Source: Gemmatimonadota bacterium (GTDB lineage: Bacteria > 4572-55 > J002). From it: a stretch of DNA of 23,134 bases. A model generated the notes under the pieces. That model was given only the letters and a program-made list of their open reading frames with translations, was not told where the DNA came from and did not search any database. Shown here piece after piece: positions 16,554 to 19,814 of this stretch. A program made the position numbers and the translations under genes. Within the stretch, counting starts at the first letter, position 1, and every line of letters begins with the position of its first letter. The DNA is taken from the NCBI GenBank assembly GCA_003697105.1, contig RFFQ01000022.1, positions 1 to 23,134 of the forward strand, written 5' to 3'.

Positions 16554-16586
16554 AAACCCTTAGGGCGTTTAATGCCCTAAGGGTTT
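16554..16586. terminator. shared terminator between convergent miaB and valS
   Basis: A perfect 13-bp stem (16554-16566 with 16574-16586) has a 7-nt loop. On the minus strand it runs into TTTTATTATAAA, a usable T-rich tail for valS. On the plus strand the stem itself ends in TTT but is followed by CGCTAC, so termination of miaB is less certain. It shares its core with the hairpin at 716-745. Confidence 0.85.
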
Positions 16587-16632: not shown

Positions 16633-19284
16633 TCAGCTCAAGTCGGCTAGATTTTTTTCCAGCCGAACCAATATTTCCATTGCCTCTGCTTGTTTCTTTT
16701 TCTCCGCCTCGATCACATGAACTGGAGCTTTAGCTACAAAGTTTGGGTTTGCCAGTTTTTTATCGGCACGGTCTAATAGAGTTTTTGTTTTCGCGATCTC
16801 CTTTTCCAAGCGCTCCCGTTCCTTATTCAAGTCGATCAACCCTTCTAAAGGAATGAACAGTTCAATATCACCAACGACCGCACTCGCCGCCATGTGAGGT
16901 TTCTGCGCCTTGGATGAAATCTCCGAAATGCTCACTTTAGCCAGATCACCGATGTAGCTTTGATCGCGCTCCAACAATTGCTGGATGGCTTCATTTTCTG
17001 TTTTGAGGATCACCTCCGCCTCTTTGGAAGGAGGGACGTTCATCTCACCGCGGATGTTACGAATGGCACTAATGATCGCCTGAATTCGATCCATTTCGGC
17101 TTCAATGGCGGGATCAATAAAGGTGGTGTCGGCTTTCGGATAAGGTGCGCGCATGATGGTTTCCCCTTGATGCGGCAATTTTTGCCAGATTTCTTCGGTG
17201 ATAAACGGCATTATCGGGTGCAACAACCGCAAACACCCTTCCAACACCTGCCATGCCACATATTTTGCTGTAAGCTGATCAATTTCATTTTGAGGATTGT
17301 AAAGGCGGGACTTAATCAATTCCAGATACCAATCACAGAAATTGCCCCAAATCAGGTCATACAAGGTGCGGGTTGCATCTGTGAAGGAAAAACTTTCCAG
17401 CGCACCATCCAATGCGCGTACCGCCCGATGATAGCGGCTCAACATCCATTCATCAGCCAAGGTATATGCCAACTGATCTTTATCCACTTGATAGGGGTCA
17501 AAGTCGCCCAAATTCATCAGGAGAAAGCGGCTGGCATTCCAAAGTTTATTAGCGAAATTCCGGCCGAGTTCACATTTTTCGGCGGAAAAGAGTACGTCAT
17601 TGCCAATCGGTGTCAAAAACGCCATCGTGTAGCGTAAGGCATCTGCCCCGTATTCGGCGATGATGTCCAGCGGGTCTGGCGAATTTCCCAACGACTTGGA
17701 CATTTTTCGCCCTTTGCCATCCCGCACAATCCCGTTAAAATAGACATTTTTGAAGGGAATTTCACCGCGGAATTCCAACCCAGCCATGATCATTCGAGCC
17801 ACCCAAAAAAAGATAATATCGGCGGCGGTCACCAAATCGGAAGTGGGATAAAAATAGTTTAGCTCATTCGTTTCCTGAGGCCAACCGAGCGTATTCAGGG
17901 GCCACAACCATGACGAAGCCCAAGTATCAAGCACATCCTCATCCTGTGTCAGAGGTGTGTCATCCGGAAGGTTGAGCTTTTGGCGTGCCTCTTCTTCAGA
18001 ATGCGCCGCGGTGTAAGCCCCATCTGGCGTATAATAGACCGGAATGCGGTGTCCCCACCACAACTGGCGTGAGATGCACCAATCTCGGATGTTTTCCATC
18101 CAATGTTGGTAGGTTTTGATCCAGTGTTCGGGATAAAATTTAATCTCCCCATTTAGCACGGCTTGAAGTGCTGGTTTTGCCAACGGCTCCATTTTGATGA
18201 ACCATTGGTCCGAAAGATATGGCTCTGTGATCGTATCACAGCGCTGGCAATGCCCGACGGAATGTTTGTGCGGTTCAATCTTGACCAAGTGACCGGATTC
18301 TTCCAGCAATTGAACCACTTTTTGGCGGCACTCAAACCGGTCCATGCCTTCAAACAGTGATCCCGCATTGGCATTCATTTTACCCTCTTCGGTCATCACA
18401 TTGATTTCCATCAAGTTATGGCGTTTTCCGGCAAGGAAGTCGTTTGGATCGTGGGCGGGCGTAATCTTTACGCACCCGGTACCAAATTCCCGGCTGACAA
18501 ATTCATCGGCGATCACCGGTAATTCACGGTTGAGGATGGGTAGAATCACGGTTTGACCGATCAAATGCTGGTAACGTTCATCTTCTGGGTGGACCGCTAC
18601 TGCGGTATCGCCTAGCATGGTTTCCGGGCGGGTAGTTGCAACAATGACTTCACCGGAACCCGCCGCAACGGGATAGCGGATATGCCAGAGATAGCTATCA
18701 TGGTCGTGATGGATATTTTCCTCATCGGACAGCGCCGTGCGGCAGCGTGGGCACCAGTTGACAATGTATGTACCTTTGTAAATCAATCCCTTGTCGAATA
18801 ATTTGACAAACGCATCGACCACCGCATAACTCATATCCTCATCCATCGTAAATTTTTCACGACTCCAGTCACACGAGGCACCCAATTTTCGTAATTGTTT
18901 GGTAATAATTCCGCCGTATTCTTCTTTCCATTGCCATACCTTTTTTACAAAAGCCTCACGCCCTAAATCTTCCTTGGATTGCCCTTGATCGCGCAACATG
19001 GCTTCCACTTTATTTTGGGTGGCAATGCCGGCATGGTCTGTACCCGGTAACCAGAGTGTTTCTCGTCCTTGCATGCGGCGCCAGCGAATGAGAATATCTT
19101 GCAACGTATTGTTGAGAACATGTCCCATATGGAGCATCCCCGTTACGTTTGGCGGAGGAATCATAATACAGTAGGGTTCCTGACTTGGGTTCACTTTTGC
19201 TCGAAAAAAGCCGCTTTTCTCCCAATGTTGATACCATTTTTTTTCCGCTTGAGACGGATCATAGGTTTTGGAAAGTTCGTTCAT
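16633..19284 (-). CDS. valS: valyl-tRNA synthetase
   Basis: The protein has 883 residues from the ATG at 19282-19284, with AGGAGG four bases upstream; the seven extra codons of the longer frame cover that site. The class I signature is HMGH (52-55) in PPPNVTGMLHMGH, the usual ValRS form, and KMSKS is at 527-531. The editing domain has TTRPETM (217-223) and GTGCVKITPAHDPNDF. The C-terminal coiled coil (about 808-883; GLIDLNKERERLEKEI onwards) is diagnostic of ValRS against IleRS. It charges tRNA-Val with valine and edits threonine. The gene has a long leader with an internal terminator (see 19285-19557). Confidence 0.98.
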   Translation of the reverse strand: MNELSKTYDPSQAEKKWYQHWEKSGFFRAKVNPSQEPYCIMIPPPNVTGMLHMGHVLNNTLQDILIRWRRMQGRETLWLPGTDHAGIATQNKVEAMLRDQGQSKEDLGREAFVKKVWQWKEEYGGIITKQLRKLGASCDWSREKFTMDEDMSYAVVDAFVKLFDKGLIYKGTYIVNWCPRCRTALSDEENIHHDHDSYLWHIRYPVAAGSGEVIVATTRPETMLGDTAVAVHPEDERYQHLIGQTVILPILNRELPVIADEFVSREFGTGCVKITPAHDPNDFLAGKRHNLMEINVMTEEGKMNANAGSLFEGMDRFECRQKVVQLLEESGHLVKIEPHKHSVGHCQRCDTITEPYLSDQWFIKMEPLAKPALQAVLNGEIKFYPEHWIKTYQHWMENIRDWCISRQLWWGHRIPVYYTPDGAYTAAHSEEEARQKLNLPDDTPLTQDEDVLDTWASSWLWPLNTLGWPQETNELNYFYPTSDLVTAADIIFFWVARMIMAGLEFRGEIPFKNVYFNGIVRDGKGRKMSKSLGNSPDPLDIIAEYGADALRYTMAFLTPIGNDVLFSAEKCELGRNFANKLWNASRFLLMNLGDFDPYQVDKDQLAYTLADEWMLSRYHRAVRALDGALESFSFTDATRTLYDLIWGNFCDWYLELIKSRLYNPQNEIDQLTAKYVAWQVLEGCLRLLHPIMPFITEEIWQKLPHQGETIMRAPYPKADTTFIDPAIEAEMDRIQAIISAIRNIRGEMNVPPSKEAEVILKTENEAIQQLLERDQSYIGDLAKVSISEISSKAQKPHMAASAVVGDIELFIPLEGLIDLNKERERLEKEIAKTKTLLDRADKKLANPNFVAKAPVHVIEAEKKKQAEAMEILVRLEKNLADLS

Positions 19285-19557
19285 TATGCCTCCTATAATA
19301 GCCACGATTAAGTTATATTCTCAGTTTAAAATGAAAAACGGAGACCGGTCTAAGCGTTGATCTCCGCAAAAATTTGGGAAAACGGTCATGAGTCATCTCC
19401 CCGGGGAGGGAATTGGCGAAGTCAACATTTGCCTCCGTGGATGAACCCCTGTATCTGATCTTCGAAGGTCAGGACAGATACAGGGCAACGAACAGTAACA
19501 TATCGACATAAGAAAACTCAAGAGAAGGTGACAAAAATGTGGTCAACCGTCACGATG
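19285..19557 (-). promoter_or_regulatory. long valS leader with structured RNA and attenuator
   Basis: From the predicted start near 19557 the leader runs about 270 nt to the valS ATG. It contains a small hairpin near the 5' end, then a strong 11-bp hairpin (CCCTGTATCTG 19485-19475 with its complement 19457-19447), a GGAGG/CCTCC stem region, and an intrinsic terminator at 19366-19334. The 5'-side CGGAG (in CCACGGAGG) could pair with the CTCCG 3' arm of the terminator, giving a possible antiterminator. I do not see the TGGNACC T-box element, so this is not a canonical T-box. No open frame rich in valine codons is present. Confidence 0.5.
19334..19366 (-). terminator. intrinsic terminator inside the valS leader
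   Basis: On the minus strand, CGGAGA (19366-19361) pairs with TCTCCG (19344-19339). The loop contains the palindrome ACCGGT, and TTTTT follows (complement of 19334-19338). It lies 50 nt before the valS ATG with little room for a promoter between, so it probably acts as an attenuator. Confidence 0.65.
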
Positions 19558-19563
19558 CAGGCA

Positions 19564-19592
19564 ATAATAAGTGCTTCCAACAGGACTGTCAA
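19564..19592 (-). promoter_or_regulatory. near-consensus promoter of the valS transcript
   Basis: On the minus strand, TTGACA (19592-19587), a 17-nt spacer and TATTAT (19569-19564) give 11 of 12 matches, the best promoter in the window. The predicted start is near 19557. Confidence 0.8.
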
Positions 19593-19599
19593 TACTCAA

Positions 19600-19644
19600 A
19601 TTAAACAAAACCGCACCAAACCTTAAGCGGTTGGTGCGGTTTTG
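19600..19644 (-). terminator. terminator of the small membrane protein gene
   Basis: A perfect 14-bp stem pairs 19606-19619 with 19631-19644 around an 11-nt loop. On the minus strand the tail is T-rich (GGTTTTGTTTAATTT). It ends the unit at 19671-19814, just before the valS promoter. Confidence 0.85.
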
Positions 19645-19670
19645 CATAATGATGTGTTCTTTAATGAGAT

Positions 19671-19814
19671 TTAACTTTCCGATGTGCTATGCACTAGGAA
19701 CAAGGCGAGTCCTAAGCAAGCGATGCTTATCCAAAGGTTCGCAACAACTAACCCGCAAAGAAGCAGTCCAAAACCGGCGACAATAAAACCGGCAGATTGA
19801 AGCGCACGTCGCAT
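19671..19814 (-). CDS. 47-residue small membrane protein, unknown function
   Basis: The ATG at 19812-19814 has GAGGAG seven bases upstream (19828-19823 region), and the frame stops with TAA at 19671. The protein starts MRRALQSAGF and then reads as two short hydrophobic helices (about 10-25 and 27-42) with a small charged tail ending TSES. A strong terminator follows 27 nt later and a possible promoter lies just upstream, so it is a free-standing gene. I do not recognise a family. The good ribosome binding site, basic N-terminus and membrane pattern argue for a real gene. Confidence 0.65.
   Translation of the reverse strand: MRRALQSAGFIVAGFGLLLCGLVVANLWISIACLGLALFLVHSTSES

Follow-up and report, generated by a model that had tools for sequence, protein, structure and literature searches.

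The stretch of DNA analyzed here (the window, 23,134 nt) corresponds to the complete contig C83; the draft genome to which it belongs (G000) has a size of 4.18 Mb. It carries valS, which encodes a valyl-tRNA synthetase whose closest relatives are found in KSB1, Neomarinimicrobiota and similar MAGs, with 50-56% identity. Together with a T9SS-type sorting domain, these relatives point to a lineage from the FCB part of the bacterial tree. Strong intrinsic terminators are located before and after valS (Table 1), and the gene therefore forms its own, monocistronic transcription unit. The terminator in front of it, which ends the upstream transcript, is bidirectional and has a counterpart on the plus strand at 19611-19639. 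In addition, an unlisted ORF of 47 aa (MRRALQSAGFIVAGFGLLLCGLLVANLWISIACLGLALFLVHSTSES) was observed between sucC and valS (window 19671-19814, minus strand), which is preceded by a good Shine-Dalgarno sequence and is membrane-like.

Table 1. Features of the valS locus; positions are those of the window.
Feature	Position	Strand	Evidence
Strong intrinsic terminator ending the upstream transcript	19606..19644	-	14-bp stem, score 36.7
Sigma-70-type promoter (TTGACA 19592-19587, 17 nt, TATTAT 19569-19564)	19564..19592	-	11/12 matches
Candidate region 1, anti-antiterminator strand, pairs with 19421-19438	19492..19507	-	Minimum free energy of the full leader -64.4 kcal/mol, prediction
Strong hairpin (CCCTGTATCTG..CAGATACAGGG)	19447..19485	-	-20.4 kcal/mol, z -3.8
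Candidate region 2, antiterminator strand	19416..19438	-	Alternative fold -63.5 vs -64.4 kcal/mol
Hairpin enclosed by the antiterminator (GGGGAGATG..CGTTTTCCC)	19376..19402	-	Fold of the region itself z -0.9, not significant
Intrinsic-terminator-like hairpin (regions 3 and 4)	19338..19367	-	9 bp, 12-nt loop, -12.3 kcal/mol
Shine-Dalgarno sequence of valS (AGGAGG)	19289..19294	-	Sequence
valS, valyl-tRNA synthetase, 883 aa	16633..19284	-	NF004349 and TIGR00422, both well over cut-off
Strong intrinsic terminator 3' of valS	16555..16585	-	Score 33.5

Promoter and leader of valS

To score promoters, a matrix was trained on upstream regions of this genome, whose consensus remained TTGACA/TATAAT-like. 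With this matrix the valS promoter obtained a score of 17.5, while the 90th percentile of the best gene-upstream sites is 16.2. The initial annotation had described this promoter as firing into a leader of about 270 nt, which was borne out: with a putative transcription start at ~19557 and the ATG at 19284, the 5' UTR comprises ~273 nt. Among 250 genes with strong promoters, sampled from 2.02 Mb or roughly half of the genome, the median UTR length is 56 nt and the 95th percentile 237 nt; 12 of these UTRs are longer than 250 nt. It had also been argued that the space behind the terminator is too small for a second promoter. The 50 nt could fit one, but no promoter was found between the terminator-like hairpin and valS, where the best site scored only 1.9 (p 0.37 compared with shuffled sequences). 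The terminator itself is overlapped by a weak promoter-like site (19352, TAGACC-18-TAAACT, score 5.8).

Hairpins in the leader

Both hairpins that had been proposed for the leader were recovered. The strong hairpin was confirmed, and none of 200 shuffles was equally stable. The intrinsic terminator said to lie ~50 nt before valS was recovered as a terminator-like hairpin, with the ATG 53 nt beyond its end, and is real but modest. Two of its nine base pairs are G-U; UUUUUCAUUUU follows directly after the hairpin, and TTTTTCATTTT extends from it to ~19328. Its score of 23.1 falls below the 10th percentile of gene-end terminators in this genome (24.3), so that it is weaker than ~90% of them. When the valS leader was dinucleotide-shuffled 2000 times, a hairpin as good appeared in 24 cases (1.2%), and a simple scan with loops of up to 8 nt misses it, given its 12-nt loop. 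The folding of the leader as a whole is only mildly unusual (z -1.9).

To place this hairpin in context, 96 promoter-proximal leaders with lengths of 70 nt or more, taken from roughly half of the genome, were examined. Terminator-like hairpins were detected in three, namely those of valS, rimP and a gene for a secreted protease-like protein (a weak one), compared to 0.7 expected from shuffles of the 96 leaders. At the valS score or better, 0.13 were expected and two were seen (valS and rimP). A strong promoter, a long leader, a hairpin followed by a U-tract and the lack of a later promoter were all observed directly, and the architecture of the leader is real and somewhat unusual.

Two further RNA elements were noted in the genome. 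The rimP leader (L185:8466-8540, contig C67, plus strand) comprises 74 nt, most of which are taken up by an intrinsic terminator (AAGTGGGTTTCTTCGCACGGACGAACCCACTT TTTATTTT) after a promoter; it has no Rfam match and is likely an attenuator. A GC-rich segment located between two co-directional genes (L121:14927-15100, contig C105, minus strand) contains inverted repeats as well as a strong terminator (35.3). It resembles a small structured RNA missing from the annotation, with no Rfam match at the gathering score.

Predicted alternative folds

In the predicted minimum-energy state of the full leader, 19507-19492 is paired with 19438-19421 and the terminator is formed. When the terminator was forbidden, the best full-leader state was the antiterminator, and the gap between both states amounts to 0.9 kcal/mol. 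Within region 2, ACGGAGGC (19438-19431) is predicted to pair with the 3' arm of the terminator; for the 5' arm the predicted partner is GUUGACUUCGC (19426-19416), and GTTGACTTCGC is also given as pairing with this arm. The segment 19440-19334 has a predicted fold of -32.0 kcal/mol, in which region 2 binds both terminator arms. The pairing of CGGAG with the 3' arm of the terminator, suggested initially, is thus found within a larger fold that ties up both arms. However, when the upstream leader was shuffled 500 times, an equally cheap antiterminator arose in 148 cases, and 7 of 56 weak control terminators from this genome gave one too, so the nested antiterminator cannot be called too good for chance. 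The modeling permits, rather than demonstrates, a 1:2/2:3/3:4 attenuator fold of the leader.

Comparison with other synthetase genes

Homologues of the leader were searched for with single-sequence covariance models. In its own genome the models matched only the leader itself. None was found in G001, the single class-mate genome of the comparison set, or in the four genomes whose valS is most closely related, and nothing credible was obtained from 38 other loci. The only match outside the window (L015, E 0.0009) was rejected as an unrelated long perfect hairpin. An origin as repeat or mobile element was discarded as well, since the leader has no second copy in the genome.

In G001, valS is preceded by a strong promoter, and its leader contains a hairpin; no terminator was found before the gene, and no terminator-like leader was found before valS of the nearest relatives (L011-L014). 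Homologous leaders lacking the terminator had been named in the initial annotation as an observation that would refute its proposal. The class-mate and the nearest relatives indeed lack one, but their leaders are not recognisably homologous to the one studied here, which makes this a weak test. A motif CGGA..AATGT, seemingly common to the leaders of valS in both genomes and of leuS in G001, was rejected as a by-eye impression: local alignment of these leaders was no better than with shuffles (p 0.26-0.61), and the pattern also occurs at other intergenic and coding places.

A promoter-leader-terminator arrangement was absent before the other synthetase genes examined in this genome, its own leuS included, and before those examined in G001 apart from leuS, the set being incomplete in both genomes. 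The leuS gene of G001 (L096:766-1013, contig C106) is preceded by a strong promoter (17.5), a leader of ~75 nt and a strong terminator (28.8; GCATAAGCC..GGCTTATGC followed by T9), from where ~108 nt without a later promoter lead to the gene. For the interpretation of the valS leader, this arrangement is suggestive but no more.

Interpretation of the leader and alternatives

Taken together, premature termination in the valS leader is still the leading interpretation, as proposed in the initial annotation. The alternative raised there of a very divergent tRNA-sensing leader, taken as a T-box, received no support. The best single reading, held tentatively and at somewhat less than even probability, is that of an orphan attenuator leader of a non-T-box kind regulating valS. 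The single strong promoter at 19592 would drive valS into the ~273-nt leader, and the modest terminator at 19367-19338 would halt part of transcription 53 nt before the ATG. The strand 19438-19416 could capture both terminator arms and thereby allow read-through, and could itself be captured by 19507-19492. This would correspond to the logic of a classical attenuator, with 1:2 and 3:4 as the off state and 2:3 as the on state. This reading is favored by the high score of the promoter and the lack of a second one, by the rarity of such a hairpin in shuffles and among the leaders examined, by a terminator-to-ATG distance similar to that of T-box-controlled valS leaders, by the closeness in energy of both predicted states and by the leuS arrangement of G001. 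Against it count the shuffles with an equally cheap antiterminator, the weakness of the terminator, the missing homologues of the leader, the missing terminators before valS of G001 and of L011-L014, the other synthetase genes examined in this genome and the lack of a credible leader peptide with valine codons. A natural guess at the signal is a shortage of charged tRNA-Val, which may be sensed via the ribosome, a protein or another route not involving a T-box.

The strongest competitor is an ordinary long 5' UTR, in which the hairpin and the following Us would be incidental or would act as a weak constitutive terminator without a regulatory role. Although chance would place such a hairpin in the leader in only ~1% of cases and a promoter-leader-terminator-gene arrangement is rare in this genome, this explanation agrees with the low score of the hairpin, with an alternative fold that does not surpass shuffles, with the mild z-score of the whole leader, with the lack of conservation of the leader and with the existence of other UTRs beyond 250 nt. 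It is considered possible, if rather unlikely.

Less probable still is a separate small-RNA gene of ~220 nt, extending from the promoter at 19592 to the terminator at 19338, with valS being transcribed by read-through or from the weak promoter that overlaps the terminator. Promoter and terminator would form a self-contained unit with a very stable hairpin inside, and the 6S RNA before the RNase Y gene rny of the same genome demonstrates that such a unit can mimic a leader, with a strong promoter and a "leader" of 270 nt. Yet behind the terminator there is no promoter, not even a poor one, and only the weak site overlaps it; the putative RNA has neither an Rfam family match nor a homologue elsewhere. 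With Rfam 15 at the gathering score, only a tRNA was matched in the window and nothing in the valS leader. A 6S identity of the leader itself, which was suggested by the rod-like fold of 19520-19380, was rejected, as the only 6S RNA of the genome is located on another contig (C165).

This 6S RNA (RF00013, 61.5 bits in Rfam) was found at L237:15085-15279, corresponding to C165:35085-35279 of the same genome (minus strand), directly upstream of rny and ~70 nt before its start codon. No 6S RNA match was obtained in G001.

With little probability, the leader might represent a new class of valS leaders in a poorly sampled FCB-like lineage, sensing charged tRNA-Val or ValRS by bistable toggling of the terminator with neither a T-box nor a leader peptide. 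Attenuation before synthetase genes is already known, and a different sensor would be needed for novelty here.

Ribosome-mediated attenuation, with a leader peptide over region 1 stalling on uncharged branched-chain tRNAs and so freeing the antiterminator, appears quite improbable. Candidate leader ORFs include one from a TTG at 19546 to a stop at 19469, ending in ..SYVDMLLFVALYLS, and one from an ATG at 19501 (MLLFVALYLS). As in known attenuators, the frame crosses region 1 and terminates within the strong hairpin, and six of its final 13 codons are for Val or Leu. Nevertheless, none of the candidate starts has a Shine-Dalgarno sequence, whereas valS itself carries AGGAGG; a run of valine codons is missing and Leu is more frequent than Val. 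No ORF that combines a Shine-Dalgarno sequence with an enrichment of valine codons was found in the valS leader.

A T-box was looked for in several ways. The covariance search that the initial annotation had proposed for the leader (RF00230) was run on 19200-19700 and returned nothing even at E<=10, nor any match to the model resembling Stem I in the leader. At the gathering score no T-box was found in the window. The search of the whole genome gave none either, while Bacillus and other controls were detected. As noted initially, TGGNACC is missing: the text search did not find it in 19592-19284, and the same search recovered it in L020, L025, L037, L046, L048 and L076. In the upstream scan, TGGNACC together with a terminator was seen before valS in Atribacteria, Chloroflexota and other groups. 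A survey from 2008 (PMC2494555) detected no T-boxes in Bacteroidetes/Chlorobi. The gene identity, the position of the terminator and the spacing of 53 nt to the ATG (48-55 nt in four of the five T-box-controlled valS leaders among the compared loci) do resemble T-box valS leaders, but against these negative searches a highly divergent T-box with direct recognition of tRNA-Val is barely conceivable, and this identity was rejected.

Comparison with known systems

Except in Firmicutes and a handful of further groups, little is known about how synthetase genes are adjusted to the charging of tRNA. If the attenuator reading is true, a non-T-box attenuator before valS would be an independent solution to this adjustment; at present the value of this orphan leader is that of a candidate for checking.

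With the 6S RNA upstream of rny, the valS leader has in common that a structured RNA of ~200 nt with a strong promoter lies directly upstream of a gene; unlike it, the leader carries a terminator-like hairpin and gives no 6S match. Ribosome-mediated attenuation has been described before leuS and trpS in some Streptomyces (PMC1262725), and pheST of gamma-proteobacteria is cited as a classical attenuator in the same article. These classical attenuators share with valS a synthetase gene with its own promoter, a leader, a terminator and, at the level of a permitted fold, a predicted, mutually exclusive antiterminator. They carry a leader peptide with cognate codons, in contrast to the valS leader, for which neither a credible Val-rich peptide nor comparative support was obtained. 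Compared to the T-box valS leaders (RF00230; L020, L025, L037 and L076), the leader studied here gave no Stem I-like match and no covariance match and lacks TGGNACC, while it resembles them in the gene it precedes, in its length and in a terminator placed ~50 nt before the ATG.
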